Assembly (NCBI GenBank): GCA_943356455.1
Contig: CALRFB010000008.1
Location: 1 to 17,905, forward strand
Direction of reading: 5' to 3'
DNA: 17,905 nt
Source of the DNA: Candidatus Nomurabacteria bacterium
GTDB lineage: Bacteria > Patescibacteriota > Minisyncoccia > Phycocordibacterales > UBA9973
Shown: positions 1-17,644 of the stretch, in pieces
How the letters are laid out: each line of letters starts with the position of its first letter
How positions within the stretch are numbered: the stretch's first letter is position 1
Notes under the pieces: model-generated
Database searches by the model: none
Seen by the model: the letters and a program-made list of their open reading frames with translations, nothing else
What the model was told of the DNA's origin: nothing
Program-made: the position numbers and the translations under genes

Positions 1-1506
1 TAGTCGTCCATCTGCCCCAACCATAGTCGGGATTGTATCGATATATGTACCAACAAGTTTAGAATACTCTCTGTGCTCCATGATTAGCGGAATGATCGGA
101 TGCGCATCTTCAAGCTCGGCCAAAACTTCGGCCTTTGTTGAAACCTTGCTCGTACGTGTTTTACGCTTGAGTCCGAGTTTGGTAAATAATATTTCTCTAA
201 GTTGTTTTGGGGACGCCAGATTGAACTCTTCACCTGCGAGAGCCCACGCTTTTTTTTCAAGCTCAGTAATGAGGCCATGATACTCTTGTGACAACTTTTC
301 AAAAACATGCTGGTCGATGCCAACACCATACTCTTCCATGTTGCGAACTATTGGATATATCGGTAGCTCAATTTCTTCATACACATGCTCGAGTTTTTCA
401 GTATGTAAATCTGCCATGATTTTTTCTTTAGCTTTTTCAAAATTGTCAGTTTTAGCATATGACAAAATTTCTGACTCCCCAGCGTAACTGATATCAGAAT
501 TCACGAGCCAAAGTGCAATAGCAGTTTTTTCAATTTCTTCTTTGCTCATACTGCTCACCACCCGCACACCGACAGTTTCATTCGCACCGAACATTTTTTT
601 AACTCGTGGAACCAGGCTACGGAATTCAAGTTCAGAAAAAGTTTTTTCTAGTTGCGTCGGATCTACGCCATCTTTCCAAGATTTTAGAGGCAATGTAAAT
701 TCTATCGGCGCATTGCGGGATATAGTCGCTAATGTTTTTGAAAACAAGGCTTCTTCCTCATTTTCGAGTAGTATGCCGATCAAGCGATCGGTAACTCCCG
801 CAGCTTTGACTTTGTCTGGATTTTTTTTGAGCACGTTATACATATTCTCAATTGTGCCGAATGACTGTATCAACGTTGTTGCGGTTTTTTCACCGACTCC
901 CGGCACGCCGATAATATTGTCAGACGGATCACCACGTAAACCTTTGTAGTCTGTAATATGTTCTGGCCCGAAACCGTAACGTTCGTTTACACCAGCTTCA
1001 TCATAAATAATTGTATCGGTAATACCTTTTCGTAATGTAAAAACTTTGACGCGTTTTTTATCGACAAGTTGCAAAGTATCCATGTCCCCTGTCGCGATAT
1101 ATATTTCTATATTTTTAGTATCTTTGAGTTGTTCCACGATCGTACCCAGCATGTCATCGGCTTCATACCCAGGGCACGAATACACCGGGATTCCAAAATC
1201 TTCGAGTAGTTCTTTGGAACGAGCCAGTTGTGTTTTGAGTGCGTCGTCAATTGTTTTTCGTCCAGCTTTATAGCCTTCATACACTTCGTGGCGAAATGTT
1301 TTTTTGGGTAAATCGTAAGCCGCGATCACGTAGTCTGGTTTCAAATCCTCAACTATCTTAAAAAGCATAGTGGAAAGACCGTACAAACCCCCTGTCGGCT
1401 CGCCACTCGCTGTCGAAAAATCTGGCATGGCATGGTATGCACGATGTAAAATAGCGTGTGTATCGAGGAGAATAACGCGAGTTTTTGCGTTTTTTTTGGC
1501 TGGCAT
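1..1506 (-). CDS. polA: DNA polymerase I, 3' part cut off by window edge (502 N-terminal residues)
   Basis: Repair and Okazaki-fragment polymerase acting on nicked DNA. Residues 1 to about 300 form a complete 5'-3' exonuclease/flap domain: the DTHAILHRAYHA motif, YEADDMLGT, IATGDMDTLQLVD, and a GDPSDNIIGVPGVGEKTA helix-hairpin-helix. From about residue 378 the start of the family A polymerase domain is visible (EEIELPIYPIVRNMEEYGVGID, then EEFNLASPKQLREILF). Only about 75 residues separate the two, against roughly 240 in E. coli Pol I, so the DnaQ-like 3'-5' proofreading domain and its acidic catalytic motifs are missing. The linker (around ALWLVNSDISYA) resembles the tail of that domain in Taq-type enzymes. 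The catalytic palm motifs lie beyond the window. The ATG at 1506 is chosen because translation from there gives the canonical N-terminus and because an extended -10 box ends 7 nt upstream. The 5' nuclease and polymerase identity is certain; the absence of proofreading is read directly from the sequence. Confidence 0.95.
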   Translation of the reverse strand, partial: MPAKKNAKTRVILLDTHAILHRAYHAMPDFSTASGEPTGGLYGLSTMLFKIVEDLKPDYVIAAYDLPKKTFRHEVYEGYKAGRKTIDDALKTQLARSKELLEDFGIPVYSCPGYEADDMLGTIVEQLKDTKNIEIYIATGDMDTLQLVDKKRVKVFTLRKGITDTIIYDEAGVNERYGFGPEHITDYKGLRGDPSDNIIGVPGVGEKTATTLIQSFGTIENMYNVLKKNPDKVKAAGVTDRLIGILLENEEEALFSKTLATISRNAPIEFTLPLKSWKDGVDPTQLEKTFSELEFRSLVPRVKKMFGANETVGVRVVSSMSKEEIEKTAIALWLVNSDISYAGESEILSYAKTDNFEKAKEKIMADLHTEKLEHVYEEIELPIYPIVRNMEEYGVGIDQHVFEKLSQEYHGLITELEKKAWALAGEEFNLASPKQLREILFTKLGLKRKTRTSKVSTKAEVLAELEDAHPIIPLIMEHREYSKLVGTYIDTIPTMVGADGRL

Positions 1507-1513
1507 ATAGAGG

Positions 1514-1522
1514 ATTATAGCA
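1514..1522 (-). promoter_or_regulatory. Extended -10 promoter of polA (TGC-TATAAT), predicted leaderless
   Basis: On the minus strand a consensus TATAAT (1519-1514), preceded by TGC, ends 7 nt before the polA ATG. The predicted transcription start is 1507 or 1506, so the mRNA would have no leader and no Shine-Dalgarno site. The -35 region is occupied by two exact tandem copies of a 12-bp repeat (1521-1544), with no good TTGACA. Confidence 0.7.
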
Positions 1523-1544
1523 TTTTCAGACACATTTTCAGACA
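1521..1544. repeat. Two tandem copies of CATTTTCAGACA upstream of polA
   Basis: Exact 12-bp direct repeat at 1521-1532 and 1533-1544, lying between the tsaE terminator hairpin and the polA -10 box. One helical turn per unit could suit a regulator, but this is inference; it may be a simple local duplication. Confidence 0.6.
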
Positions 1545-1547
1545 CAG

Positions 1548-1576
1548 AAAAATCCTTGGTACAACCAAGGATTTTT
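1548..1576 (-). terminator. Rho-independent terminator downstream of tsaE
   Basis: A perfect 13-bp inverted repeat (1548-1560 and 1564-1576) with a 3-nt loop has T-runs at both ends. It lies 10 nt past the tsaE stop, between tsaE and the polA promoter, so the two same-strand genes are probably separate transcription units. Confidence 0.75.
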
Positions 1577-1586
1577 CAAAAATGAG

Positions 1587-2042
1587 TTACGCTTTTTCTT
1601 CAATACTCACACTTCTTCCGTCGCCATCGTACTCTATTTTTAGATCTATGCGTCTGTCGGGCAGCCTGTCCCCCAAAAGCTCTGGCCATTCTATAACTAT
1701 AAGATTTTTTGGGTCAGCGATTATTTCATGGAGACGAATTGTTGCAGCTTCTTCAGGTTTTTCAAAACGATATGCGTCAATGTGAATGAAGTTAGAAAAA
1801 CGATTATTCTCACCACCATGTATGAGCGGGTATATTTTCATTATCACAAAAGTCGGTGAGATAATTTCATCTTCAATATCATATGACTTCGCAAGGTATT
1901 GAGTCAGGGTTGTTTTGCCTGCACCCAAATCACCCCAAAGTGCCACAATGGTAGCAGAATCACTTTTAAAATCTTCTATTGTTGTGCGTAAGGCAACCGC
2001 AACTCTGGCAAAATCACTTCCTTTTTTCGTTTCTAATTGCAT
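1587..2042 (-). CDS. tsaE: tRNA threonylcarbamoyladenosine biosynthesis ATPase TsaE
   Basis: TsaE is the P-loop ATPase of the TsaB-TsaD-TsaE complex that installs t6A at position 37 of ANN-decoding tRNAs. The 151-residue protein has the usual family length. It shows a Walker A motif GDLGAGKTT at residues 37-45, the switch-like SPTF segment, HIDAYR, and VIEWPE as the Walker B-like motif. An extended -10 box (TGG-TATAGT) ends exactly 6 nt before its ATG, supporting this start and a leaderless mRNA. It is bounded by terminators on both sides and looks monocistronic; tsaB and tsaD are not in the window. Confidence 0.95.
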   Translation of the reverse strand: MQLETKKGSDFARVAVALRTTIEDFKSDSATIVALWGDLGAGKTTLTQYLAKSYDIEDEIISPTFVIMKIYPLIHGGENNRFSNFIHIDAYRFEKPEEAATIRLHEIIADPKNLIVIEWPELLGDRLPDRRIDLKIEYDGDGRSVSIEEKA

Positions 2043-2048
2043 GTAGTA

Positions 2049-2057
2049 ACTATACCA
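2049..2057 (-). promoter_or_regulatory. Extended -10 promoter of tsaE (TGG-TATAGT), predicted leaderless
   Basis: TATAGT at 2054-2049 is preceded by TGG and followed by 6 nt and then the ATG at 2042. The position expected for +1 is the A of the start codon. No -35 match is visible; the extended -10 may compensate. Confidence 0.7.
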
Positions 2058-2065
2058 AATACTAT

Positions 2066-2091
2066 AAAAAACCCTTTTCAGGGGGTTTTTT
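2066..2091 (-). terminator. Terminator of the FN3/DUF11 surface-protein gene
   Basis: A stem of A6CCC (2066-2074) paired with GGGT6 (2083-2091) has an 8-nt loop and lies just past the stop codon at 2098, followed on the minus strand by further T residues. The next same-strand gene, tsaE, has its own promoter immediately beyond. Confidence 0.75.
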
Positions 2092-2097
2092 TATATA

Positions 2098-4290
2098 TTA
2101 ATATCGATAATTTCTGCGCGTAATGAGGAGCGCAATAATGATGATGATCAGGATAAGTATCCAGAATAAGCAGCTACCACTTCCAAATATCGCTAGACCA
2201 GCAAGACCGTTACCACCACATGAGACATTGATAAGCGCGTAAGCGATTGCATCTCCTTGGTCATGCGTCATTGGGTTTGTGTAGACAGCTGTTGCTGTAG
2301 AAACGAGAGTATCTCCTGTGGCGTTTCGAGTATTTGCTGTGGCTTCGATACTAAACGAACCTTGTTCGTGTGAATCCAAATCACCAACAAGCACGGTTAC
2401 TGTATTTGCTGCATCAGCATAACTACCACGGCTTGATCGCAAGAATGTTTCTTCTTTTGGCAAAATAACTTGCACGATAACATCACGCAATGTTTTACCA
2501 GTTAGATTTTGATATGTGACAGTGTAATTGACTGTGTCGCCAACACACATCGCACCAACACCAGAATCAATCGTGAGTTTGAGTAATGGACCACTTCCGC
2601 CAGTGTGTGTATTTACGTAAATAATTTTTGGACCGACACCATTGTCAGATGTATCAAAGAAATATGTCTGACCGGTTGCTGTACCAAGATTATTCTGCGC
2701 CATAGCACGATAGAAATAACGAGTTCCTGGTTGAAGATTTTGTAGGAAATCGCTAAATGTCGCACCGGTATTCATGGTCTGGTGTTGTGTTGCAGTACCG
2801 AGAGAATAGGTAGTTCCCCATTCAAACCATACTTGTGTATTTTGGTAATTTGTATATGTTGAACTACCTGTTGAATTGAGGAAGCCATTGATACGAGCTG
2901 ACGTCTGAGCAATGTTGGAAGCAGAGACAGTTGTGACGACTGGTGGTTGCTGTTGCTGTACGGGTGGAACATACGTACTGTTTGTCGTACATGAAAGTAT
3001 TGTGCCGTATGCTGTGCCACCTTGATTCTGCGCAACCGCTTCAAAATAATACGTCGTGTTTGGGATAAGACCACTTAGCGTGTAATTAAAATTACCCGAT
3101 GTACCGTATTGTGATTGATTGCCAACTTGGTATCCAAGTGAATATGATGTGCCGTATTGGAACCATGTTGTTACATTTGAAGTACTGTTTGCGTAATAAG
3201 AACCAGCCATTGAAAATGATGTGTCTGTAGAATTACAGTTACCGGAAATTGTAGTAACTGTTGGCGCATTCTGTATTTGTGTTGTTGTAACAAATGAAAG
3301 AATCGTGCCACATGTTTGTGCTGTTGCTGTTGTGTCCGCGCACGCGCGGAAGTAGTATGTCGTATTTGGCATGAGGCCTGAAATGAATGCTTGCATAGTG
3401 CCGGACGATGCATTTATATATTGCATGGTTGTTTGATTGCCGAGACTTTGTGCTGTTCCCCACTCAAACCAATTTGTTGAAGAGCTTTGATTTGTTGCAT
3501 ACGAACCATTAAGTGTCGCACTGGTTTGGGTAATATTTGTTGCAGGTTGAGTAGTTGCTGTAACGTATGCCTGTTGAGTAATTGTATTGAATTCATCGTT
3601 GTCAGTGTAAGACGAACAACCCGGATCTGCTGGATAATCGATGAGGCCGTCTCCGTCATTGTCGAGATGATCATTACAAGCATATATAGTCTGAGTTGGT
3701 GTTGTACCAATTTGGAAGCGCGCTACAACTGAGCCCTGGTGACAAAATGTTTGTGAGCTAGGACATGTACTATCGGCCAGAATGTTGCCGATTGAAACTC
3801 CATTTGAACTAAACAATGCAGCTTCCTGTGAAGCTGAAAGATATTGTGGGGTTGTTACAGCTTGGTCAGGAAACCATGCAGCCGTCCCTGGAATGTAGGT
3901 AATCGTCTGTGGTATACCCGGGATAGTGACTGTGGCGTAGCCGAGATCGAGGTTGGCATTGCTTGCCCAAACACCGCCTGCAAAAATCTTGCTATTTACT
4001 GCCGGATTATTTTGTGGAGCAAGGCGAATGCGGGTATCTTGTGCTGTTTCATTACCAGTATTGTGGTAATACACGCGAACAGAAACCACTTGACCTTGGT
4101 TCATTGAAACTGTTGGTGACCAACATGTTGAACAACCAGGATTCTGTGTGTAGTTTGAAACCAGTGTTGTATCAAAGTCGTTTGGATTAGTATTAAATAC
4201 TGTCGATGCGCTTGCTGTCGCAACTGACATGCAGAGAAATGCCACTGTGGCAAATGTTGCTATAAAAAAGATTTTTGAAAAATATTTCAT
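2098..4290 (-). CDS. Secreted, C-terminally membrane-anchored surface protein with three FN3-like repeats and a DUF11-type domain
   Basis: No specific family name can be given. With the ATG at 4290 the protein has about 730 residues. It starts with a signal peptide (MKYFSKIFF, a hydrophobic core, then ATASAS). A Cys-containing beta-rich N-terminal region follows. Next is a calcium-binding-like acidic segment (NDHLDNDGDGLIDYPADPGC), a motif frequent in extracellular proteins. Three FN3-like repeats come next, each with the signature WFEWGT/WFQYGT..SLG and PNTTYYFRA/PNTTYYFEA/PGTRYFYRA. A DUF11-like domain (VGDTVNYTVTYQN) comes before a C-terminal membrane segment (LFWILILIIIIIALLITRR) with a positive tail. 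This implies a cell-surface protein anchored in the cytoplasmic membrane, possibly an adhesin facing a host cell; that role is inference. An upstream in-frame ATG at 4332 would lengthen the signal-peptide n-region by 14 residues and lies close to the predicted promoter, so the start is uncertain. Confidence 0.8.
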   Translation of the reverse strand: MKYFSKIFFIATFATVAFLCMSVATASASTVFNTNPNDFDTTLVSNYTQNPGCSTCWSPTVSMNQGQVVSVRVYYHNTGNETAQDTRIRLAPQNNPAVNSKIFAGGVWASNANLDLGYATVTIPGIPQTITYIPGTAAWFPDQAVTTPQYLSASQEAALFSSNGVSIGNILADSTCPSSQTFCHQGSVVARFQIGTTPTQTIYACNDHLDNDGDGLIDYPADPGCSSYTDNDEFNTITQQAYVTATTQPATNITQTSATLNGSYATNQSSSTNWFEWGTAQSLGNQTTMQYINASSGTMQAFISGLMPNTTYYFRACADTTATAQTCGTILSFVTTTQIQNAPTVTTISGNCNSTDTSFSMAGSYYANSTSNVTTWFQYGTSYSLGYQVGNQSQYGTSGNFNYTLSGLIPNTTYYFEAVAQNQGGTAYGTILSCTTNSTYVPPVQQQQPPVVTTVSASNIAQTSARINGFLNSTGSSTYTNYQNTQVWFEWGTTYSLGTATQHQTMNTGATFSDFLQNLQPGTRYFYRAMAQNNLGTATGQTYFFDTSDNGVGPKIIYVNTHTGGSGPLLKLTIDSGVGAMCVGDTVNYTVTYQNLTGKTLRDVIVQVILPKEETFLRSSRGSYADAANTVTVLVGDLDSHEQGSFSIEATANTRNATGDTLVSTATAVYTNPMTHDQGDAIAYALINVSCGGNGLAGLAIFGSGSCLFWILILIIIIIALLITRRNYRY

Positions 4291-4336
4291 CTGATTGTGA
4301 TTGTTGCTTATTAATAATTGCTTCTGTTTCATTACT

Positions 4337-4365
4337 TTTAAAGATTCGAGCGCGCTTACGTTCAA
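4337..4365 (-). promoter_or_regulatory. Candidate promoter of the FN3/DUF11 gene (TTGAAC-17-TTTAAA)
   Basis: TTGAAC (4365-4360) and TTTAAA (4342-4337) are separated by 17 bp on the minus strand. Predicted transcription starts near 4330, next to the alternative ATG at 4332, giving either a near-leaderless message from there or a leader of about 40 nt before the preferred ATG at 4290. Confidence 0.45.
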
Positions 4366-4403
4366 ATTCTTAAAAATAAGGAGGTCTGCATACGAGACCT
4401 CCT
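4366..4403 (-). terminator. Terminator downstream of the Gly/Asn-rich protein gene
   Basis: A perfect 9-bp stem (AGGAGGTCT at 4379-4387 with AGACCTCCT at 4395-4403, 7-nt loop) is followed on the minus strand by a T-rich run at about 4378-4370. It lies 34 nt past the stop of the 4438-6495 gene and separates the two secreted-protein genes. Confidence 0.75.
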
Positions 4404-4437
4404 AGGTACTCTGTGTGTTTCAGGCACAGTCTGATTA

Positions 4438-6495
4438 CTAACGGCGTCTCATGCCTCCACCCATATTTCCCATTTGTATTCTTGGCATTGGGGCTGGTGC
4501 AGACATACGTTGCGCTGGCATGGATTGTGCCATTCTCTGCGCGGGCATTTGTGCCGGTGCAGATTGTTGCATATGCGGTGGTTGACGATATGCCAACTCA
4601 CGAGCATTTGTGTTACGTGGTGCAGGTGCTTGTGCTGGTTGCATCGTCGGACTAGATTGCGGAGTAGCTACTTGTGGACGATTTTGTGCAACATTGTTGC
4701 GAACACCATTGTTACGAGCAAAATCATTTCGGGCAATATCATTGAACTGACTGTTGTTTACGTTATCAGAGTTTCTGGTGGGCGTATTCGTTTGTACAGG
4801 ACGTGACATTGTCGCAGATCCACTTGGTTGCATACTTGGTTTCGAGCCCAATTGAGCACTAGGCGGACCACTTGGTCGTGGTGACATTGGTTGCATGTTC
4901 GTATTTGGACGAACAGCTGTTTTGGTCACATCGCTGTAAACGGGTTTTGCAGGTGCATTTGCAAACGCTGGCTGATTTCGCATTCCACTATTTTGTAGTG
5001 TGCGGTTTGGTTGAGCATTTTGTTGTTGCATTGCTGGACGAGTCACATCTGTATACGTAGCTCTTGAAACCGGAGAACTTGTTGTCGGTATATTTGGATT
5101 GCGAACTTTTCCGCCCCAAACCGTACCGCCACCATCTGGATTCCACGGATCAGGATACCCGCCCGTGCCTCCATTTGTTCCACCGTTTGTGCCACCAGTA
5201 TTGCCTCCGTTATATCCACTGTTACCAGCGATATTTGGAAAGCTTCCATTCATACCTGGACCATTTTGTGGGTTTACAGGTCCACCGGTTCCGTTGCCGT
5301 TACCATTTTGTGGATTGACTGGACCGCCAGTACCATTTCCTGGACCCCAATTGCCGCCATTTCCGCCTGAAGTAGTCGGATAGTGAATGACAACTGGTGT
5401 TGTTGAATGATTGTCTACAGTAGATGTGTACGTGTGCGTGATTGGATTGTATGTCCAAACTGTCGACGAACTAGTTGAAGTGTTTGTTGTTGGGCTGTAT
5501 ATAGTGACGCTGTGGTCGCTATAATCGTAAAAAGTACTGTTGTTACTATTACTCATTGTCCAATTTTGAGACGGTTGCGGTTGTGAATAATTTCCACTAC
5601 AACATCCGCCTCCTAAACCTCCACTGTAACCACCATACGAACTATAACCACCGAAACTCAGGCTTGCACTTACGCCGAAACTTGCGCCGACTGGCGGGCA
5701 ATATACCGGAGTTGAATACGGAGTGTATGGAACACTCGTAGTAAGCGGTACATACGACTGAGCTTGAGGTTGTGTGTAGTAATTGTTGGTTACATACGTA
5801 CTACCTCCATCTCCGTCTTGATCGACCGTAACCATTGCTGTTGCATTTGCATCAGCACCACCTGACTCAGCATGTTTTTCATCGTGAGCGACAGTAGTCG
5901 GAGTACTAGCGAGATTTTGGTCATCATTGTATTCCGTTGGTTGTTCGGTTTGTTGTTGTGGTTGTACAGTAGGTACAACATACATCGGGTTCATGCATGG
6001 CATATAACATACTGTTATATAGTCATTGCCCGTATACTCTGGGTTGATTGTTTTTCCCCAAATGATTACCTTGTATTCATTTGGATATTTTTTTCTCCCC
6101 ACCTTCCCTTCGGAAGTTACAGGTAAAAAAGAACCGTCATCCGCAAGACCGAGCGGCATTTCCCACTCATTCGCAGGAATAGTATCGAAATACGGCAGAA
6201 GTTGATCGAAATTTTCAGCATAAAATACATCCGTTGTGATGCTTTTATTTTTAAGCTGTTCGTTCATACTTTCCGTTGTTTTCGATTTTAAATCCACGAC
6301 TGAGCACCTAAGTGGTGTTCCGTTGGGATTTATTCCATTGGTGTATGTGGCCTTGATATCATCAAGACTGTAGTTGGCTCGATTTGGTTGATATTTCGCA
6401 ACCGCGTGGAGCATTTTTTTTGGTCCGGCTGCATAGGCCGAAAAGCTGGTAGCGACAATAGCCGTTACAAGTAATCTGTAAAGGAACTTTTTCAT
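4438..6495 (-). CDS. Secreted low-complexity Gly/Asn/Pro/Gln-rich protein of unknown function
   Basis: I do not recognise a family. The 685-residue protein begins with a clear signal peptide (MKKFLYRLLVTAIVATSFSAYA, cleavage before AGPKK). Residues of about 23-175 form a normal-composition domain with Cys residues (RCSVVD, CYMPC). The rest is low complexity: a Gln/Pro/Thr stretch; a Ser/Tyr/Gly section with CPPVG and GGGCCSG; a Gly/Asn repeat zone including two copies of GGPVNPQNG; and a Pro/Gln/Met/Ala/Arg-rich tail ending in MGGGMRRR. Two related segments (RATYTDVTRPAMQ and KPVYSDVTKTAVR) form an internal repeat. No membrane anchor is seen beyond the signal peptide, so it is probably exported and matrix- or surface-associated. 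A terminator separates it from the FN3 gene downstream, but both encode exported proteins and may act at the same surface. Confidence 0.75.
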   Translation of the reverse strand: MKKFLYRLLVTAIVATSFSAYAAGPKKMLHAVAKYQPNRANYSLDDIKATYTNGINPNGTPLRCSVVDLKSKTTESMNEQLKNKSITTDVFYAENFDQLLPYFDTIPANEWEMPLGLADDGSFLPVTSEGKVGRKKYPNEYKVIIWGKTINPEYTGNDYITVCYMPCMNPMYVVPTVQPQQQTEQPTEYNDDQNLASTPTTVAHDEKHAESGGADANATAMVTVDQDGDGGSTYVTNNYYTQPQAQSYVPLTTSVPYTPYSTPVYCPPVGASFGVSASLSFGGYSSYGGYSGGLGGGCCSGNYSQPQPSQNWTMSNSNNSTFYDYSDHSVTIYSPTTNTSTSSSTVWTYNPITHTYTSTVDNHSTTPVVIHYPTTSGGNGGNWGPGNGTGGPVNPQNGNGNGTGGPVNPQNGPGMNGSFPNIAGNSGYNGGNTGGTNGGTNGGTGGYPDPWNPDGGGTVWGGKVRNPNIPTTSSPVSRATYTDVTRPAMQQQNAQPNRTLQNSGMRNQPAFANAPAKPVYSDVTKTAVRPNTNMQPMSPRPSGPPSAQLGSKPSMQPSGSATMSRPVQTNTPTRNSDNVNNSQFNDIARNDFARNNGVRNNVAQNRPQVATPQSSPTMQPAQAPAPRNTNARELAYRQPPHMQQSAPAQMPAQRMAQSMPAQRMSAPAPMPRIQMGNMGGGMRRR
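5261..5344. repeat. 42-bp tandem repeat inside the Gly/Asn-rich gene
   Basis: Two imperfect 42-bp units (5261-5302, 5303-5344) each begin with CCATTTTGTGG and encode the repeated GGPVNPQNG segment. The in-frame unit length allows copy number to vary without a frameshift. Confidence 0.7.
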
Positions 6496-6592
6496 CTTGT
6501 TTGAGATTTAGTATTTTCTTATATACTACCATTTATAAAGACAAAAGTCAAGCATTTTACTATTGCTTTTTTCCTATTCTAGCCTTATTTCA

Positions 6593-6601
6593 TGGTACAA
6601 T
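6593..6601 (+). promoter_or_regulatory. Extended -10 promoter of pilB (TGG-TACAAT), predicted leaderless
   Basis: TACAAT (6596-6601), preceded by TGG, ends exactly 6 nt before the ATG at 6608. This places +1 on the start codon and argues against the longer TTG start at 6563. No clear -35 is present. Confidence 0.7.
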
Positions 6602-6607
6602 TTTGAC

Positions 6608-9677: not shown

Positions 9678-9683
9678 TATACT
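9678..9683 (+). promoter_or_regulatory. -10 promoter box of ruvC (TATACT), predicted leaderless
   Basis: TATACT ends exactly 6 nt before the ATG at 9690, so +1 falls on the start codon. It lies in the short ruvB-ruvC gap, so ruvC may be transcribed on its own as well as by read-through. Confidence 0.65.
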
Positions 9684-10172: not shown

Positions 10173-10238
10173 TTTCTCCTCGAGGAATACTATTAAAATA
10201 AAGAAAATGAGGTTTTCCTCTTGCCAAGGAAATCACGA

Positions 10239-10282: not shown

Positions 10283-10299
10283 GTAGCTCAATAACACAT

Positions 10300-10494
10300 A
10301 TGATTGATGATGATGAAAAAGTATTTCCAGTAGATGCCGATCTGGAAGAAGGTGAAATAGACTTCAATGTCGACCATTTCCCTGGTGCTGACCTTGAGGA
10401 CGATTTCCTAGCGGAAGACGAGGCGGAAATTCCTCATGTTGGTCTCCACGTTGAAGATGATGAGGTTGTTGAACCAGTAGAAATAGAACTCTAA
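10300..10494 (+). CDS. Small highly acidic protein of unknown function
   Basis: 64 residues, unrecognised. Asp and Glu make up close to half of the chain (MIDDDEKVFPVDADLEEGEIDF through EVVEPVEIEL), with no Lys after the first ten residues, no Cys, and no membrane segment. It has a plausible promoter just upstream and ends 2 bp before a strong bidirectional terminator, which together support a real transcription unit. Such acidic tails or mimics can bind basic proteins or nucleic-acid-binding surfaces, but no function is assigned. Confidence 0.6.
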   Translation: MIDDDEKVFPVDADLEEGEIDFNVDHFPGADLEDDFLAEDEAEIPHVGLHVEDDEVVEPVEIEL

Positions 10495-10524
10495 AGAAAA
10501 AACGCCATATGGCGTTTTTTCTTT
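10493..10524. terminator. Bidirectional terminator, perfect 32-bp palindrome
   Basis: The left arm 10493-10508 is the exact reverse complement of the right arm 10509-10524. The core GCCATATGGC is flanked by A6 and T6. It overlaps the stop codon of the acidic-protein gene and lies just past the tyrS stop on the other strand, so it can terminate both convergent transcripts. Confidence 0.88.
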
Positions 10525-10539
10525 TCATCTTATATTGAT

Positions 10540-11727: not shown

Positions 11728-11734
11728 GTGGTCA

Positions 11735-11743
11735 AATGTAACA
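11735..11743 (-). promoter_or_regulatory. Extended -10 promoter of tyrS (TGT-TACATT), predicted leaderless
   Basis: TACATT (11740-11735), preceded by TGT on the minus strand, ends 7 nt before the ATG. Predicted +1 is 11728 or 11727. There is no T-box leader or other riboswitch upstream, as expected for a leaderless message. Confidence 0.6.
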
Positions 11744-11804
11744 TAAAAACCACTCTTTCGTCACCATAGTGCGTGAAAGATATGAATACTAATGAAAAAC
11801 ACCG

Positions 11805-11813
11805 TGGTACTAT
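11805..11813 (+). promoter_or_regulatory. Extended -10 promoter of the PBP gene (TGG-TACTAT), predicted leaderless
   Basis: TACTAT (11808-11813), preceded by TGG, ends 7 nt before the ATG at 11821. This excludes the longer GTG (11773) and ATG (11782) starts. Its divergent partner, the tyrS -10, lies about 60 bp away. Confidence 0.62.
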
Positions 11814-11820
11814 ATACGCT

Positions 11821-14349
11821 ATGAGAAAGCATACATTTATTCCCCGCAAAGCTCTAAATATCGGATTTTCCATCCTGGGCGTACTCGCTATAGGTGTTGG
11901 TATTTTATTCATTTGGATCGGCACGGCAAAAATCCCGGATTTTCGTTCCATAAATGATCGAAAAATCCTCAATTCCACTAAAATTTATGATCGAACCGGA
12001 GAAACACTTCTCTATGACCTCCATGAAGATGTTAAAAGAACAGTGATTCCGTTTGATTCAATGGGAGATAATATCAAACATGCGACTGTGGCTATCGAAG
12101 ACAAAGATTTCTATAACCACGGTGGTATTCGTGTCACATCTATTTTACGTGCCGTCCTTTCAAATATTTTTAAAGGCAGTTCACAGGGTGGGTCAACAAT
12201 AACTCAACAAGTTATAAAGAATTCATTATTAACACAAGAAAAAAGTATTTCTCGTAAATTCAAAGAGTGGATTTTATCTATAAAAGTAGACAACACCCTC
12301 AGTAAAGATGAAATCTTGGCTCTCTACCTCAATGAAAATCCATACGGTGGTGCAGTGTATGGTATACAAGAAGCTTCACAGACTTATTTCAAAAAAAACC
12401 CTGCTGATCTAACTATTGCCGAATCAGCATACCTTGCTGCTATTCCTCAGTCACCAACTACATATTCTCCTTATGGGAAAAATATAGATAAGCTTAATGC
12501 CCGAAAAAATCTTGTTCTCAAAGATATGGTGGAACAAAAGTATATTACTCAGGCGCAATACGACGAAGCTAAAGCTGAAAAGGTTATCTTTCAACCAAAA
12601 GAACAAGCAAGTATTAAGGCTCCCCATTTTGTATTTTATGTTCGTGATTATTTACTCAACAAATATGGTGAAGATACTGTGTATACAGGGGGTTTGAAAG
12701 TTATAACTACATTGGATTGGGGCCTACAATCCAAGGGTGAAGCTATTGTAAAAGAGTGGGCAGCAAAAAACGAAAAAACATCTAAAGCCTCCGATGCTGC
12801 TCTGGTAGCAATCGATCCAAAAACTGGCCAAATTCTAACCATGGTAGGTAGCCGTGACTATTTTGGTAAAGCACTTCCAGAAGGCTGTATACCTGGAAAA
12901 GATTGCGCCTTTGATCCAAACTTCAATGCTGCTCTTTCTCCTCGTCAACCGGGTTCGTCTTTTAAACCATTTGCATATGCAACTGCATTCGAAAAGGGAT
13001 TTTTACCTGAAACAGTTCTCTTTGATGTACCGACAGAGTTTTCTACAAGTTGTACATCAAATAAAAATTCTTGTTATAACCCCGACAACTTCGATAACTT
13101 ATTTAAAGGACCGATTTCAATGCGTTCTGCTCTCGCAGAATCACGAAACGTACCTTCTGTAAAAACGCTATACCTTGCTGGTCTGAAAGATACATTAAAA
13201 ACTGCAAAAGACATGGGTATACACACTCTTGGTGAGGCAAGTACATACGGTCTTACTCTCGTACTCGGAGGTGGTGAAGTCTCACTTCTTGATATGACAA
13301 GTGCGTATGGTGTATTTGCAAATAATGGTATTAGAAATCAACCAACGGCAATTATTTCAGTTACCGACAAAGACGGGGAAATAATTGAAGAATATTCACA
13401 AATAGAAGAGCAAGTTATTCCGAAAAATGTAGCACTTCAGATTTCAGATGTTCTTTCCGATAATAATGCTCGTATACCAACATTTGGTGCAAACTCCCCA
13501 ATGTCATTCCCTGGACGTGATGTTGCAGGAAAAACTGGTACTACAAACGACAACCGCGACGCTTGGCTTGTTGGTTACACTCCATCTATTGCTGTTGGGG
13601 CGTGGTCCGGCAATAGTGATAACTCTAAAATGTTAAAAGGTGGCTCTGCTGTGTCGGGTCCACTTTGGCATGCATTTATGAATGAAGCTTTAAAAGTAAT
13701 GCCAAATGAACAGTTTGAAGAATGGGATCGTCCCGTAAATTATGATCAACTTAAACCAGTTCTTCGTGGTCAGTGGCAAGGAGGTGTGAGTTACTTTATC
13801 GATACAATTTCAGGAGGTCTCGCAACAGAATTTACTCCAGATGAAACTAAAAAAGAAATTCTCACGACTGGTGTACATGATATCTTGTATTGGGTAAATA
13901 AAAATGACCCCACAGGTCCAGCACCATCAGACCCAAACAGTGACTCTCAATACCATCTTTGGGAACCTGGTGTTCAGAAATGGGTAGCTGAACATCCTAA
14001 TTTAGTGACTGTAAGTGGTGGAACTCCTCCCTCGTACTCCGACAATGTGCACACACCAAATAATTCGATTGTAGTATCTATAACAAACCCAATAGCCAAT
14101 AGTACAATCGATGCAAATACACTTACAACGATCTCTGTTTCCGCAAGTGGATCTGGATATATTCGTAAAGTAGATTATTTTGTAAACGACACCTATATCG
14201 GTACATCTGATTCGCTTCCTTTTAATTTTACTTTTACTCCAGTAAATATACCTGGTGTAGATTCTCCTACAACCATACGAGTTGTGGCAACGGACTCTGT
14301 TTACAATAAAAAAGAAACTACAACATCGGTAACAGTAAGTGGTTTATAA
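11821..14349 (+). CDS. Class A penicillin-binding protein (bifunctional transglycosylase/transpeptidase) with Ig-like tail
   Basis: Polymerises and cross-links peptidoglycan outside the cytoplasmic membrane. The 842-residue protein has a short cytoplasmic tail and a membrane anchor at about residues 11-33. The GT51 glycosyltransferase domain has catalytic Glu93 in EDKDFYNHGG, then GGSTITQQVIKN and the LALYLNENPYGG segment. The transpeptidase domain has SSFK at 379-382 (acyl-enzyme Ser379), SRN at 441-443 and KTGT at 571-574. Residues of about 748-842 form an Ig-like (Big) domain after a Pro/Ser linker, an addition that may bind wall or surface polymers. All catalytic motifs are intact, so it should be active and penicillin-binding. 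It is a PBP1a/PbpF-like protein; a precise subfamily symbol is not claimed. Its stop is only 2 bp from the convergent DciA-like gene, with no terminator hairpin in between. Confidence 0.93.
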   Translation: MRKHTFIPRKALNIGFSILGVLAIGVGILFIWIGTAKIPDFRSINDRKILNSTKIYDRTGETLLYDLHEDVKRTVIPFDSMGDNIKHATVAIEDKDFYNHGGIRVTSILRAVLSNIFKGSSQGGSTITQQVIKNSLLTQEKSISRKFKEWILSIKVDNTLSKDEILALYLNENPYGGAVYGIQEASQTYFKKNPADLTIAESAYLAAIPQSPTTYSPYGKNIDKLNARKNLVLKDMVEQKYITQAQYDEAKAEKVIFQPKEQASIKAPHFVFYVRDYLLNKYGEDTVYTGGLKVITTLDWGLQSKGEAIVKEWAAKNEKTSKASDAALVAIDPKTGQILTMVGSRDYFGKALPEGCIPGKDCAFDPNFNAALSPRQPGSSFKPFAYATAFEKGFLPETVLFDVPTEFSTSCTSNKNSCYNPDNFDNLFKGPISMRSALAESRNVPSVKTLYLAGLKDTLKTAKDMGIHTLGEASTYGLTLVLGGGEVSLLDMTSAYGVFANNGIRNQPTAIISVTDKDGEIIEEYSQIEEQVIPKNVALQISDVLSDNNARIPTFGANSPMSFPGRDVAGKTGTTNDNRDAWLVGYTPSIAVGAWSGNSDNSKMLKGGSAVSGPLWHAFMNEALKVMPNEQFEEWDRPVNYDQLKPVLRGQWQGGVSYFIDTISGGLATEFTPDETKKEILTTGVHDILYWVNKNDPTGPAPSDPNSDSQYHLWEPGVQKWVAEHPNLVTVSGGTPPSYSDNVHTPNNSIVVSITNPIANSTIDANTLTTISVSASGSGYIRKVDYFVNDTYIGTSDSLPFNFTFTPVNIPGVDSPTTIRVVATDSVYNKKETTTSVTVSGL

Positions 14350-14351
14350 AA

Positions 14352-14603
14352 TTATCGAATCTCGGTTATAGAAATACCCGCACCATTTAAAAGGCGCTGT
14401 ATTTCTTTTGTTTTGGAAAGTAGCTCTTGTTTAACTACACCAGTTACTCGAACAGATAAAACCGTATCACGAAGAGAAATAGCATCTTTTTTGACTTCTA
14501 TACCTATACCTTTTTTTATAGCGAAAGCTATTACTTCTTTTTCATCGTAAGCTTTGAGAATTTTCTTACGTAAATTATCTGAGAAAGATGCAAACGACTG
14601 CAT
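14352..14603 (-). CDS. DUF721/DciA-like small protein downstream of dnaN
   Basis: The 83-residue protein lacks a named motif, but its second half (LSVRVTGVVKQELLSKTKEIQRLLN..GISITEIR) has the pattern of the DUF721/DciA family: an L-V-V strand, an aQEL-type helix, and a final strand ending in IR. DciA proteins load the replicative helicase DnaB and are found beside dnaA/dnaN in several phyla. It starts 3 nt after the dnaN stop, so it is almost certainly co-transcribed and probably translationally coupled with dnaN. It is shorter than typical DciA, as if reduced to the core KH-like fold. The assignment is by pattern and context, not by a diagnostic motif. Confidence 0.55.
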   Translation of the reverse strand: MQSFASFSDNLRKKILKAYDEKEVIAFAIKKGIGIEVKKDAISLRDTVLSVRVTGVVKQELLSKTKEIQRLLNGAGISITEIR

Positions 14604-14606
14604 ATA

Positions 14607-15704
14607 TTATCTATTCATAGGCATCATGAGGTATAAAAATCCTGAATCTCCAACACCACCAACAACAATAGGGCGGTTGGCTTCACTACATTCGATAGAA
14701 ATACTATCGCTACCAATACTGTTTAAAACTTCAGATAAATATCTGTAATTTACAAGTACTTCAATTGGATTTCCTTTAATAGCGCCGGACACATCTGTTT
14801 TTTGTTCACCAACATCACTATTTTTTGAAGATAGAGAACATTTTTTTGTAGAAGGGTTAAGTGTAAAAGTTATTTGATTAAACTTTCCAGAGAATACGTT
14901 TGAAAGTCTGAGTGCCTGTATAAGGTCTGATTTGAGCATTACAGCATCTGTTGTGTGGTCTTTTGGGATAATCTGTCGGTAGTCAGGGAAGATGCCGTTA
15001 ATGAGGCGACTAGTGACGTATATGCCATTTGCGGTAAAAGCAACTTGGTGTTCAGAAATTGTAATAGTAATATCATCATCGATTGATTCGAAAGTACGGA
15101 CGATATCAGTAACATTTTTTAAAGGAATTAAAATTGATTCTAAATCGATAGGTTGTTTAAGTTTTATTTTCTTTTCTGCGAGTCTAAACGAGTCTGTGGC
15201 AACAAATACTAGTTCACTATTGTCTCCATACACATACACAGCTGCTATTTCTGGTTTTATATCTGAAACTGCACCCGCAAACATAACAGAACGGAAACCA
15301 TCGAGTAATTTTTCTCTTGGGAGAGTGAATGAAACACCTTCCACTGTTGGTAATGTTGGAAAATCTTCATAAGGAACGCATTTTATTAAAGCATTACTTG
15401 TTTTTGATGCTAAACGAATATTGTCATTCTCTGTGGTAACAGTGACTTGGCTATTATTGGGGATATTGCCGAGGAAACTGTTGAGAACTGAACCAGTAAT
15501 AGCAATCATCCCTTCTTCTTCAACCTTTGCCGGTATTTCAATTTCAATACCAAGACTAAGATTTGTAGCTCGAACCCTTAACGTTTTTCCTGATGCAACT
15601 AAAAGCAAAGAAGAGAGTGCTGGGAGTGCAACATTTTTTCCTGTAATTCTATCTGCAACACTCACAATCATTTTTAGTTTTTCACTTATACACTCTAATC
15701 TCAT
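14607..15704 (-). CDS. dnaN: DNA polymerase III beta subunit (sliding clamp)
   Basis: Ring-shaped processivity clamp for the replicative polymerase. At 365 residues it has the usual length. The N-terminus (MRLECISEKLKMIVSVADRITGKNVALPALSSLLLVA), the central domain (FPTLPTVEGVSFTLPREKLLDG, FVATDSFRLAEKKI) and the third domain ending in LYLMMPMNR match the three repeated clamp domains and the conserved C-terminal MPM-x segment. The start at 15704 is 6-7 nt after a TATATA box that is part of the AT-rich origin element. It follows dnaA on the same strand and leads into the DciA-like gene. Confidence 0.96.
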   Translation of the reverse strand: MRLECISEKLKMIVSVADRITGKNVALPALSSLLLVASGKTLRVRATNLSLGIEIEIPAKVEEEGMIAITGSVLNSFLGNIPNNSQVTVTTENDNIRLASKTSNALIKCVPYEDFPTLPTVEGVSFTLPREKLLDGFRSVMFAGAVSDIKPEIAAVYVYGDNSELVFVATDSFRLAEKKIKLKQPIDLESILIPLKNVTDIVRTFESIDDDITITISEHQVAFTANGIYVTSRLINGIFPDYRQIIPKDHTTDAVMLKSDLIQALRLSNVFSGKFNQITFTLNPSTKKCSLSSKNSDVGEQKTDVSGAIKGNPIEVLVNYRYLSEVLNSIGSDSISIECSEANRPIVVGGVGDSGFLYLMMPMNR

Positions 15705-15709
15705 ATCTT

Positions 15710-15717
15710 TATATATA
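15710..15717 (-). promoter_or_regulatory. Probable dnaN -10 box within the AT-rich origin stretch
   Basis: TATATA registers within the alternating AT run on the minus strand end 5-7 nt before the dnaN ATG, again predicting a leaderless or near-leaderless start. The low-complexity run makes the exact register uncertain. Confidence 0.45.
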
Positions 15718-15742
15718 TAAATACTATTAATACTATTATCGC
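15711..15742 (-). other. DNA unwinding element with DnaA-trio-like triplets
   Basis: Reading the minus strand from the DnaA boxes: GCG (15742-15740), then six triplets of form NTA in unbroken 3-bp phase (ATA ATA GTA TTA ATA GTA, 15739-15722), then TTT and alternating AT down to 15711. In B. subtilis the strand carrying 5'-TCCACA is likewise followed by a GC cluster, nTA-type triplets and an AT-rich tract where DnaA opens the duplex. On the plus strand the triplets appear as two tandem copies of AATACTATT. Confidence 0.65.
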
Positions 15743-15923
15743 TGTGGATATGTGGATTACTTTTTAAACCTTTCTTTATATAGGTGCTTTGAGAAAGTGT
15801 TTTTCTGTATCTGGGGATAACACCTGCTCGTTTTCCACCTATTCACAGTCGGCTCAAGTTATCCTTTTTGACTCCACAGGTTATTCATTGGGTTTTCCAA
15901 TAATAGTTATCCACTTATCCACC
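15743..15923. other. oriC: oriC candidate: inverted clusters of DnaA boxes between dnaN and dnaA
   Basis: Near dnaN lie two overlapping boxes, TGTGGATATGTGGATTA (15743-15759). Near dnaA lie two more in inverted orientation, TTATCCACTTATCCACC (15907-15923). Both clusters have an 8-bp period. Between them are weaker matches: TGGGGATAA at 15812-15820 (one mismatch), TTTTCCACC at 15831-15839 and CTATTCACA at 15839-15847. Together with the adjacent unwinding element and the classical gene order, this marks the chromosomal origin. No gene is present in the interval. Confidence 0.75.
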
Positions 15924-15928
15924 GACTT

Positions 15929-17290
15929 TTACACAGATTTGAATAATATTCTAATCTGTTCTACTTCATCTACTAGTGTTTGATCGACCTTTAAATCATT
16001 TCGAATTTTAAGGTGTGAGTGAATAACAGTTGTATGATCTTTACCACCGAGTTTTTGGCCAATAAGTGGATATGAAACATTGAAGTCTTCACGGAGAATA
16101 TACATAATCACCTGTCGAGCCTTCACAATCTCTTTTCTACGAGTCTTTTCATATACTGTTGTCTCTTCTAGATTATAGAAATCGGTAATTATTTTAACAA
16201 TATCCTTAACTGAGACGTTTTTCTTTGGTTTTACACTGTTTTTTATAAGGTTTTTGATTTCATTTATAGAAAGAGGTTTCTGTTTAAGTTGAGTTTGAAC
16301 GATTATGGTATTTAAGACCCCCTCTAGTTCTCGGATATTACCTTGAATTGAGGTAGCAATAAATGAAACCACTTCATCTGTGATTTCTATACCCAATTGT
16401 CGACTTTTAGCCTTTAAAATAGCCACACGAGACTCATAATCTGGATCTCCGACGTCAACTATCATGCCGGCAGCAAAGCGAGATTTTAGGCGATCCTCAA
16501 GCCCAGGGATAAAGTTTGGGTGTTTATCAGAGGAAAAGATAATCTGCTTGTTTTGATCGTAAAAAGTATTAAACAAATGAAAGAGTTCCTCTTGGGTTTT
16601 CTCCATTTTTCCTATAAATTGGATGTCATCAATAACAATACAGTCGTATTTTCTATACTTTTCTTTAAATTGGAATGGATTTGACTTACTATTTCCCTGT
16701 AATGAGTTGATATAGTCGTTGGCGAACTTCTCAAGAGTTATGTAGTGAACTTTTTTATCAGGGTATTTCTCTTTGATGGCGTTGCCTGTTGCTTGGATTA
16801 GGTGTGTTTTTCCAAGACCAGTACTACCATATATAAAAAATGGGTTATACAGTGCTCCAGGCTTGTTAATAATAGCCTGACCTGCGGCGTAGGCTAGTTC
16901 ATTGAACGAACCAACAATGAAAGTATCAAATGTATATCGAGGATTGAGGTTGTCGTCTTTATTTATATATAGATCTTTGAGAGGTAATTCTCTTGAAGGA
17001 AGGATATGAACCGGGCTTTCATCTCGGGTGCGGTCGCGGTCAAACTTGGTGATAGTAAACTCTACTCCCCTGACGTTTTCAGAGTAGTTCATAAGAACTT
17101 TTAGAATAAGTTTTTGATATTTTGTTATGAGCCACTCCCTTACAAATTCATTTGGTACACCGACGTATACCGTACCCGAATCTTCTTTTGAAATATGGGT
17201 ATTTTTAAACCAAGTACTAAAGTTCGCTTTTGAAACATTCGTTTCGATCTCTTGAAGACAGCTATTCCAAATTTCTCTAGTATCAAGCAT
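15929..17290 (-). CDS. dnaA: Chromosomal replication initiator protein DnaA
   Basis: AAA+ initiator that binds DnaA boxes and melts oriC. The 453-residue protein has domain I (residues 1 to about 80, with WNSCLQEIE and FSTWFKNTHI), an almost absent domain II (about 80-105), and the AAA+ domain: Walker A GSTGLGKTH at 155-163, Walker B IVIDDIQF around 218-225, box VII SDKHPNFIPGLEDRLKSRF with the arginine finger at 271. Domain IV has the DnaA signature helix GGKDHTTVIHSH (415-426), which reads the box sequence. All key residues are present. A consensus TATAAT ends exactly 6 nt before its ATG. A perfect DnaA box lies about 45 bp upstream of that -10, consistent with autoregulation. Confidence 0.97.
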   Translation of the reverse strand: MLDTREIWNSCLQEIETNVSKANFSTWFKNTHISKEDSGTVYVGVPNEFVREWLITKYQKLILKVLMNYSENVRGVEFTITKFDRDRTRDESPVHILPSRELPLKDLYINKDDNLNPRYTFDTFIVGSFNELAYAAGQAIINKPGALYNPFFIYGSTGLGKTHLIQATGNAIKEKYPDKKVHYITLEKFANDYINSLQGNSKSNPFQFKEKYRKYDCIVIDDIQFIGKMEKTQEELFHLFNTFYDQNKQIIFSSDKHPNFIPGLEDRLKSRFAAGMIVDVGDPDYESRVAILKAKSRQLGIEITDEVVSFIATSIQGNIRELEGVLNTIIVQTQLKQKPLSINEIKNLIKNSVKPKKNVSVKDIVKIITDFYNLEETTVYEKTRRKEIVKARQVIMYILREDFNVSYPLIGQKLGGKDHTTVIHSHLKIRNDLKVDQTLVDEVEQIRILFKSV

Positions 17291-17296
17291 GGGATC

Positions 17297-17302
17297 ATTA
17301 TA
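17297..17302 (-). promoter_or_regulatory. Consensus -10 box of dnaA (TATAAT), predicted leaderless
   Basis: TATAAT at 17302-17297 is followed by 6 nt and the ATG at 17290, so +1 coincides with the A of the start codon. The -35 region shows no close match. Confidence 0.72.
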
Positions 17303-17347
17303 GGCTGATTACTAGTGTCTGCATATCTTGATTTTTTTATTATAATA

Positions 17348-17356
17348 TGTGGATAA
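17348..17356 (+). promoter_or_regulatory. DnaA box between dnaA and rpmH
   Basis: A perfect TGTGGATAA lies in the 203-bp divergent dnaA-rpmH gap. A weaker half-match (ATCCACAGG) is near 17404. A plus-strand TATAAT at 17341-17346 abuts the box. DnaA feedback on these promoters is plausible; no gene is seen in the gap. Confidence 0.6.
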
Positions 17357-17458
17357 CTTGTTAATACTATGAAAAACAGCTTATTCTATATAGGTTAAAC
17401 GAATCCACAGGTATTTTACTAAAAAATACATCAAGAAAAATTCAAGACCTCATGAGTA

Positions 17459-17487
17459 TTGTCTAAATGATACAGGTGGTGTATAGT
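17459..17487 (+). promoter_or_regulatory. Promoter of rpmH-rnpA (TTGTCT-17-TATAGT), predicted leaderless
   Basis: TTGTCT (17459-17464) and TATAGT (17482-17487) have the ideal 17-bp spacing, and the -10 ends 6 nt before the rpmH ATG at 17494. It is the best complete -35/-10 pair among the leaderless promoters here, fitting a highly expressed ribosomal-protein gene. Confidence 0.75.
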
Positions 17488-17493
17488 GCTCGC

Positions 17494-17643
17494 ATGTCAC
17501 AAACGTATCAGCCGAAAAAAAGAAAGCGCGCCAAGACCCACGGCTTCCTTGTTCGCGGTAAATCTGCAACCGGTAAACAGGTCCTCGTTCGCCGACGCCG
17601 CAAGGGACGCAAGGCTCTTACGGTTTCTGCTCACAAGAAATAA
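17494..17643 (+). CDS. rpmH: 50S ribosomal protein L34
   Basis: Small, very basic ribosomal protein of the large subunit; 49 residues. The N-terminal [14 protein letters not shown] and the following [20 protein letters not shown] are the L34 signature (TYQPSKRKRKRTHGF in E. coli-type proteins). A short Ser-Ala-His-Lys-Lys tail is present. It lies divergent from dnaA and one base before rnpA, the usual L34-RnpA arrangement. Confidence 0.96.
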
Positions 17644-17644
17644 T

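Follow-up and report, generated by a model that had tools for sequence, protein, structure and literature searches.

The window, by which we mean the whole stretch of DNA analysed (17,905 nucleotides), comprises positions 1 to 17,905 of the forward strand of contig CALRFB010000008.1, from the Candidatus Nomurabacteria bacterium assembly GCA_943356455.1. Family searches identified TsaE, RuvB, RuvC, TyrS, a PBP1A-family protein (PBP), DnaN, DnaA and L34 above curated cut-offs, polA was identified from its domains, and the pilB product is a PilB/GspE-like ATPase that scores below the family cut-offs. The first-pass annotation had listed eight putative -10 boxes ending 6 or 7 nt before an ATG, and all eight are present as claimed:

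1514..1519, minus strand: putative -10 box TATAAT, extended by TGC, 7 nt before the polA ATG (1504-1506)
2049..2054, minus strand: putative -10 box TATAGT, extended by TGG, 6 nt before the tsaE ATG (2040-2042)
6596..6601, plus strand: putative -10 box TACAAT, extended by TGG, 6 nt before the pilB (PilB/GspE-like ATPase) ATG (6608-6610)
9678..9683, plus strand: putative -10 box TATACT, without TGN, 6 nt before the ruvC ATG (9690-9692)
11735..11740, minus strand: putative -10 box TACATT, extended by TGT, 7 nt before the tyrS ATG (11725-11727)
11808..11813, plus strand: putative -10 box TACTAT, extended by TGG, 7 nt before the PBP1A-family ATG (11821-11823)
17297..17302, minus strand: putative -10 box TATAAT, without TGN, 6 nt before the dnaA ATG (17288-17290)
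17482..17487, plus strand: putative -10 box TATAGT, without TGN, 6 nt before the rpmH ATG (17494-17496)
17459..17464, plus strand: -35-like TTGTCT, a 4/6 match to TTGACA, separated by 17 bp from the -10 box of rpmH

The TGN motif was likewise found upstream of the five boxes for which it had been described (polA, tsaE, pilB, tyrS and PBP) and is absent at ruvC, rpmH and dnaA. The description of most boxes as lacking a -35 element needs correction for rpmH on account of the TTGTCT listed above. The dnaN gene, proposed as a probable ninth case, was rejected because no TAnnnT lies 4-13 nt upstream of either of its candidate starts (15704 or 15671). The ruvC box is located 29 nt downstream of the ruvB stop codon. 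For PBP, the start caller chose position 11782; both same-genus genomes keep the box and the ATG at 11821 and have no ATG matching 11782, and this conservation favours 11821, the start given in the annotation, as the probable one. As had also been stated for the listed genes, no Shine-Dalgarno (SD) motif is seen at the starts: none of GGAG, GAGG, AGGA or AAGG ends 3-13 nt upstream of the 16 start positions examined (14 genes). If a strict hexamer is required (TA, three letters with at most one mismatch to TAA, then T), six of the eight boxes qualify and those of tyrS and PBP fall short. By chance, a strict hexamer would end 6 or 7 nt before approximately 2% of start codons (5.93 of 297 on average in the shuffles), and its occurrence at 6 of 15 starts in the window corresponds to a binomial P of about 3e-7.

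The upstream regions of the genome were then examined for a -10 box at a fixed position. Gene starts were called without regard to motifs across 62% of the genome, resulting in 309 starts, of which the 12 non-ATG starts were left out (one of these has a box, at 9 nt), leaving 297. With distance counted from the end of the box to the ATG, strict boxes at 5, 6, 7, 8, 9 and 10 nt were found at 0, 41, 13, 9, 8 and 7 of the 297 starts, against a background of 2.0 per position. The genome-wide peak that the first-pass annotation named as a check is observed, with a box ending 6 nt before the ATG at 41 of the 297 starts. Composition-preserving shuffles of each upstream region (1000 rounds) gave a mean of 3 and a maximum of 11 at 6 nt, and a strict box precedes only 3 of 1472 internal in-frame ATGs at this distance. 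Pooling four genomes of the family gave the same profile (1, 74, 24, 15, 12 and 8 of 474 starts at 5 to 10 nt). The box excess at 6-8 nt amounts to about 19-21% of starts in this genome and to 21.4% in the four pooled genomes, and a looser scoring of the box resulted in a 40% excess over control positions. Boxes at 6-7 nt occur at 24 of 79 divergent genes versus 2 of 51 genes whose co-directional neighbour is at most 10 nt away. TGn precedes 24 of 54 boxes, and the nucleotide immediately before the ATG is T or C at 250 of the 297 starts.

Counting SD motifs as 4-mers 4-10 nt upstream (rather than as hybridisation energies) identified 6 of the 297 starts, against 11 expected. The same pipeline recovered SD motifs in a Firmicutes control (45.4% versus a 6.7% background) and in E. 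coli (12 of 35 versus about 1). The other partner of the pairing was sought in the 16S rRNA. Neither CCTCC nor CTCC is present in any of the 21 readable 16S tails among 22 loci, which comprise 19 relatives, two fragments from the genome itself and one locus (L070) without a readable tail. The two own fragments were not found in the first Rfam search; the tail pattern located them (L083 and L084) and Rfam confirmed them. They are two different partial copies, both at contig ends, so one of them may belong to a close relative. Substitute pairing with the new tail was rejected, as TTGAA, TGAAT and GAATT occur at 7, 11 and 11 of 474 starts and flanking windows give 5-14. Inverted repeats in the new tail average 4.1 versus 3.3 in shuffles, with the best of 300 shuffle sets equal to the observed value, and two tails would require 2-nt loops to form a hairpin. 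Loss of another translation component alongside the anti-SD was considered as well: S1 was rejected, with an S1-domain match in 92 of 93 class genomes (none above the rpsA cut-off), as was bS21, with a patchy distribution of matches in 60 of 93 (24 above the cut-off).

The boxes are conserved among relatives. In the family, 38 genomes have a match for the dnaA/rpmH locus, and 30 of these loci were covered; among them, a box is found 6-12 nt before the dnaA ATG in 24 of the 30 and 6-8 nt before the rpmH ATG in 20 of the 30. Judged by -10 geometry, dnaA of the relatives would often have a leader of 1-6 nt. Both same-genus genomes have the dnaA box at an identical spacing of 6 nt, TATATT 7 nt before the rpmH ATG, and the PBP box with its 7-nt spacing. 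The tyrS box is the same in both; G121 has it 7 nt before the ATG, G114 12 nt before.

Boxes and SD motifs were compared across the class using 23 genomes picked for a known tail state and long contigs (59-115 kb per genome; 357 kb for G000). The box excess at 6-8 nt is 11.8% in nine further genomes that lack the anti-SD and 4.5% in eight with the canonical one; the former nine retain a small SD-like excess (+4.7%). The correlation of tail state with box ratio used 58 of the 59 genomes matching the tail pattern. G058, whose only match is not 16S-like, was left out, as were second matches of G000, G065, G067, G083, G085 and G091; the 34 of 93 class genomes without a match are uncounted. Across the class the resulting link is of moderate strength (Spearman -0.41) and shows no gradation: the ratios of genomes with 3-4 of the 5 core letters are no lower than those of genomes with no core letter. 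G085 has a canonical anti-SD yet an 11% box excess. Elsewhere in the phylum, family f75 shows a 6.5-fold excess of TATAATN6ATG, while 15 of its 23 genomes match the canonical tail. This contradicts a strict law that couples anti-SD loss to boxes; ATG-adjacent boxes do not require that loss.

The most probable reading, in which we have high confidence, is that the boxes are sigma-70-type -10 elements placing +1 on the A of the ATG or 1-4 nt upstream, such that the mRNAs would be leaderless or nearly so. That sigma70 geometry puts +1 on or beside this A had been suggested for the window, and the spike at 6 nt, the lack of boxes at 5 nt and the bias toward first genes support it well, as do box conservation across genera and the lack of an SD excess. 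The further suggestion that leaderless initiation is the rule for first genes is well supported for dnaA and rpmH, but goes too far as a general rule: among 82 divergent genes, 34 have a strict box ending 6-10 nt upstream of an ATG in frame and 48 have none there. The true leaderless share is probably higher than counted because start-calling errors dilute the signal.

Could promoters lie elsewhere? The boxes could be secondary promoters or byproducts of compaction, with other promoters starting transcripts a few to tens of nt upstream and SD-independent initiation on short leaders at A/U-rich, unstructured starts assisted by S1. In keeping with this, most starts lack a strict box, box-less starts are enriched in AATAA/ATTAA, and S1-domain matches are nearly universal in the class (92 of 93), a weak argument since none is above the rpsA cut-off and archaeal controls match too. 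However, loosely placed promoters would not give 41 boxes at 6 nt and none at 5 nt, nor keep the box of 20 among 30 rpmH loci of the family at a distance of 6-8 nt, and we regard this explanation as unlikely. A composition artefact or a Kozak-like A/T preference without promoter function, as in Bacteroidetes (PMC6847099), would fit the A/T-rich upstream regions, the missing SD excess and the reversed hexamer, which is also increased at 6 nt (13 of 264). It is very improbable given that composition-preserving shuffles reach at most 11 versus 41, that tightly co-directional genes rarely have boxes (2 of 51), and that Flavobacterium ribosomes keep the anti-SD (PMC6847099) that is absent here. Slighter still is the chance that the starts are misassigned, the true ones lying downstream and the boxes being ordinary promoters of leadered genes. 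The caller is imperfect, recovering 32 of 47 E. coli starts exactly, but the peak is unchanged if the 5'-most or the best-coding ATG is taken as the start, internal ATGs show none, and the matches to the family models begin at residue 1 in RuvC and L34 and at residue 8 in DnaA.

Under the leaderless reading, -10 elements, often TGN-extended and with a weak or no -35, would direct RNA polymerase to begin on the start-codon A or 1-4 nt before it; we infer these transcript 5' ends, and hence leaderless or nearly leaderless mRNAs, from -10 placement. The ribosome would accept the 5'-terminal AUG without SD pairing, and closely spaced downstream genes, mostly without boxes, would probably be reached by coupling or re-initiation. 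With no SD excess at starts and no CCUCC in the 16S tail, the family appears to have lost the SD system on both sides, and in leaderless mRNAs many gene starts would therefore be set by the promoter. We lean toward the broader view that a large Paceibacteria clade dismantled its SD/anti-SD system, losing CCUCC and leaving the RNA polymerase -10 element to fix both transcription and translation starts. On balance we also favour replacement of CCUCC in this family by another conserved, partly palindromic tail as part of the same process. If true, promoter position determines where many genes start in an ultra-small bacterial clade, and neither partner of the classical ribosome-binding-site pairing remains. 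This would bear on gene-start annotation of these uncultured genomes, on expression of their genes in E. coli, and on the debate that sets leaderless initiation as an ancestral trait against a derived one. Because intact, altered and lost anti-SDs all occur in lineages of one class, the steps of the transition can be followed there.

Both components have precedents: Deinococcus-Thermus also has an ATG-adjacent -10, and loss of CCUCC is known in a few lineages of the radiation studied here. A published table of SD-scarce bacteria without CCUCC contains, in its accessible portion, one Campbellbacteria, one Wolfebacteria, two Absconditabacteria and one Peregrinibacteria genome. These share the CCUCC-less tail and scarce SD motifs seen here; the accessible portion of that source does not describe a start-codon -10 box or the class-wide extent of the loss. 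We found no paper linking the ATG-adjacent -10 architecture with CCUCC loss in the lineage studied. The Campbellbacteria and Wolfebacteria genomes of that table presumably belong to the same class as our genome. Bacteroidetes genes also lack an SD motif, as here (PMC6847099, PMC6107228, in their available text), but Flavobacterium keeps the anti-SD and uses a Kozak-like context (PMC6847099), whereas the present genome combines a tail without CCUCC with a -10 box at the start. The closest likeness is to Deinococcus-Thermus, where, according to the available part of the report, a TANNNT -10 element lies few bp before about 30% of ORFs, its spacing is required, the -35 is optional, transcripts are leaderless or have very short leaders, and promoter function was tested experimentally (PMC12340547). 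The present genome likewise has TANNNT at a fixed short distance above chance (an excess of about 19-21% at 6-8 nt), conserved across related species. That report describes a coexisting RBS motif and experimental evidence (PMC12340547, same part), whereas here there is no SD excess, the 16S rRNA lacks CCUCC, and the promoters are predictions from sequence.

All eight sigma-70-type -10 boxes that the first-pass annotation had placed just before window genes (polA, tsaE, pilB, ruvC, tyrS, PBP, dnaA, and rpmH) were found on inspection of the sequence as described, and rpmH also has a -35-like TTGTCT at 17 bp from its -10 box. The proposed ninth gene, dnaN, has no box. Two large genes on the minus strand, 2098–4290 and 4438–6495, probably encode surface or secreted proteins; the latter has no Pfam match, and no TAnnnT lies 4–13 nt upstream of either start (4290 and 6495). 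The pilB–ruvB intergenic region (8318–8510) is non-coding, has no Rfam match, and has an elongated rod as its predicted fold (-42.6 kcal/mol, z -1.85; 10/200 shuffles fold as well), the shape of which was judged 6S-like by eye. The window comprises bases 1–17905 of the 20139 of contig C8, in a genome of 575,624 bp (50 contigs, 88% complete). The public records nearest to its DnaA are a Paceibacterota MAG (64%) and Yonathbacteria (59%), then Zambryskibacteria, Nomurabacteria, and Kaiserbacteria, although very near records are possibly absent from this comparison. From these names, we take the genome to belong to the class Paceibacteria.

Genes were called without any upstream motif in 356,576 bp (62%) of the genome, consisting of 20 stretches and the window, and a strict box was defined as TA[TAA, at most one mismatch]T. 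Among 297 ATG starts, strict boxes at 5, 6, 7, 8, 9, and 10 nt before the ATG numbered 0, 41, 13, 9, 8, and 7, over a background of about 2 per position farther upstream, bearing out the anticipated positional enrichment. After 1000 shuffles of each upstream region, the count at 6 nt averaged 3.0 and reached at most 11. Pooling four genomes of the family (474 starts) gave 1, 74, 24, 15, 12, and 8 at the same distances. With an earlier gene caller, the box stood at 6 nt in 39/264 cases for both the 5'-most and the best-coding ATG, compared with 3/1472 internal ATGs; the reversed hexamer was found there in 13/264 and 12/264, respectively. Transcription from sigma-70 promoters normally begins 7 nt past the -10 box. 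With any spacer shorter than 6 nt, the transcript would therefore lose the A of AUG, and the sharp edge seen between 5 and 6 nt is as expected from leaderless geometry.

Boxes at 6–7 nt precede 24/79 divergent genes and 2/18 genes at edges. For co-directional genes, the proportion was 6/56 with upstream gaps above 100 nt, 11/47 at 41–100 nt, 9/46 at 11–40 nt, and 2/51 at 10 nt or less. When any nearby in-frame ATG was allowed, 34/82 divergent genes had a box at 6–10 nt (2–7 in control windows of equal width), and a looser weighted score gave an excess at 6–8 nt of 40% for divergent genes, 31% for co-directional genes separated by over 10 nt, and 4% for those packed more closely. TGn lies upstream of the box in 24/54 cases, with G at -14 in 56%, and any -35 element is weak, with T in 50% at -35 and G in 30–41% at -33/-32. 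Position -1 is T or C at 250/297 starts, which is weak evidence because T is as frequent there (61%) in tightly packed, mostly box-free genes.

The claim that these starts lack a Shine–Dalgarno (SD) sequence is matched by the absence of an SD excess across the 297 starts: GGAG, GAGG, or AGGA ending 4–10 nt before the ATG occurred at 6/297 starts, below the 11.0 expected from flanking windows, and at 2.1% versus 4.0% in the four pooled family genomes. The same pipeline detected SD at 45.4% versus 6.7% in 27 Firmicutes loci, where there was no box excess (3 boxes at 6–8 nt in 293 starts), and at 12/35 starts in 50 kb of E. coli. In the twelve nearest public loci (L232–L243; Paceibacterota, Yonath-, Zambryski-, Nomura-, and Kaiserbacteria, the Parcubacteria and Patescibacteria groups, and three labeled "uncultured bacterium"), the box excess at 6–8 nt was 16.7% and SD stood at 0.6% versus 4.4%.

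A first search of the bin with the Rfam SSU model reported no 16S rRNA. A helix-45 pattern located two 3' fragments at contig ends, the identity of which was confirmed:

L083:6511–6686 (contig C31), 16S rRNA 3' fragment without CCTCC
L084:5652–5853 (contig C34), 16S rRNA 3' fragment without CCTCC

Their tails are GGATTAATTCATAC and GGAACAATTCAAGT, respectively, and the presence of two different fragments points to two rRNA copies or, alternatively, to a close strain within the bin. The 16S tail of most bacteria is GGATCACCTCCTTT, which the helix-45 scan found, with or without its last letters, in 20 genomes. Neither CCTCC nor CTCC was present in any of the 21 readable tails from 22 family loci, most of which read GGAATAATTCAATTTGA. 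This substitute tail forms a partial palindrome (TTCA..TGAA; alignment A2, columns 27–38), both halves of which are altered in step in L064 and L075, to CTCA..TGAG; a role in 3' processing is conceivable. Allowing up to one mismatch, the canonical tail occurs in 217/379 genomes across the phylum, compared with 0/6 of the family and 4/32 of the class in the same sample, where a non-match may also reflect a 16S gene missing from the assembly. In a class sample with usable tails from 58/93 genomes, 20 keep CCTCC, 12 keep three or four of its five letters, and 26 keep two or fewer. On a DnaA tree rooted at the midpoint, in which the deep forks are weak, 17 genomes group in one clade (support 100/99) where none of the 14 known tails is canonical, 12 having at most two core letters and 2 having three; changed tails also occur outside it (G020, G026, G051, and G019). 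G304, from the same order, carries a canonical tail (G304:C6:263–305) with a helix 45 unlike that of its relatives, possibly on a contaminant contig.

DnaA matches were found in 38/40 family genomes. Among the 30 loci listed (proteins 64–100% identical, own included), a dnaA box lies at 6–12 nt in 24, at 6–8 nt in 16, and never at 3–5 nt; by the same geometry, this drift from 6 to 12 nt would give leaders of 0–6 nt. An rpmH box lies 6–8 nt upstream of the ATG in 20 of these 30. Both same-genus genomes have TATAAT at 6 nt (dnaA), TATATT at 7 nt (rpmH), and TACTAT at 7 nt (PBP), and the tyrS box TACATT stands 7 nt before the start in one of them and 12 nt before it in the second. Candidate dnaA starts were found in 12 of the 13 public loci L232–L244, with a box at 7 nt in two (L236 and L244) and at 6 nt in none; leaderless dnaA thus looks like a trait of the family more than of the class.

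The relation between boxes and anti-SD (aSD) loss was examined by counting TATAATN6ATG against its reversed control for each tail class. The pooled ratio was 1.50 with CCTCC (20 genomes), 3.5 with four core letters, 4.8 with three, and 2.9–3.7 with zero to two. CCTCC and zero-to-two-letter genomes differed by genome (Mann–Whitney P 0.0005) and by family (P 0.015; 14 vs 19 families, medians 1.70 vs 3.23). The gene-anchored box excess at 6–8 nt was 21.4% in the family (4 genomes), 11.8% in other aSD-less genomes (9), 5.2% in intermediate ones (2), and 4.5% with CCTCC (8), with medians by aSD state of 13.0 vs 6.2 (P 0.0013; P 0.011 without the family). SD excess in these groups was -1.9%, +4.7%, +6.9%, and +3.9%, so SD is weak in every group, and some aSD-less genomes have an SD-like excess (G029 and G054, 16% vs 6%). 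In all of these comparisons, family averaging is the only correction for shared ancestry. A strict link between boxes and aSD loss is contradicted by f75, another family of the phylum, with 1138 TATAATN6ATG against 174 controls (6.5-fold) and a canonical tail in 15/23 genomes. Seven f75 genomes (G232, G278, G401, G361, G465, G480, and G488) have an extreme excess, e.g., 60+64 vs 6+4. All of these except G361 and G488 match the canonical tail and are candidates for leaderless-rich genomes that retain the aSD.

Alongside the observed position, statistics, and conservation of the boxes and the absence of an SD excess and of CCUCC, we propose that +1 falls at or adjoining the A of AUG, that translation would start on the 5'-terminal AUG, using ribosomal particles that already carry initiator tRNA and IF2, as described in PMC10783764, and that coupling would serve tightly packed genes. 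Leaderless promoters may have become common early in the phylum, relaxing the need for SD and permitting decay of CCUCC in the class; this order is a guess, consistent with f75. Broad conservation is noted for YchF, a factor that promotes translation of leaderless messages (PMC12641178), and Era, which binds GAUCA and CCUCC, is absent from most phyla of this radiation (PMC10582724). In the accessible portions of open-licence literature on Patescibacteria and the candidate phyla radiation, neither leaderless genes nor an altered 16S tail was described for the group; single Campbellbacteria and Wolfebacteria genomes are already among those listed as SD-scarce and without CCUCC (PMC10783764, section 21). 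CCUCC loss with SD scarcity is known from Bacteroidetes, Mollicutes, and small symbionts (PMC6107228; PMC10783764), and Deinococcus-Thermus is an established case of leaderless mRNAs associated with ORF-adjacent -10 motifs (PMC12340547).
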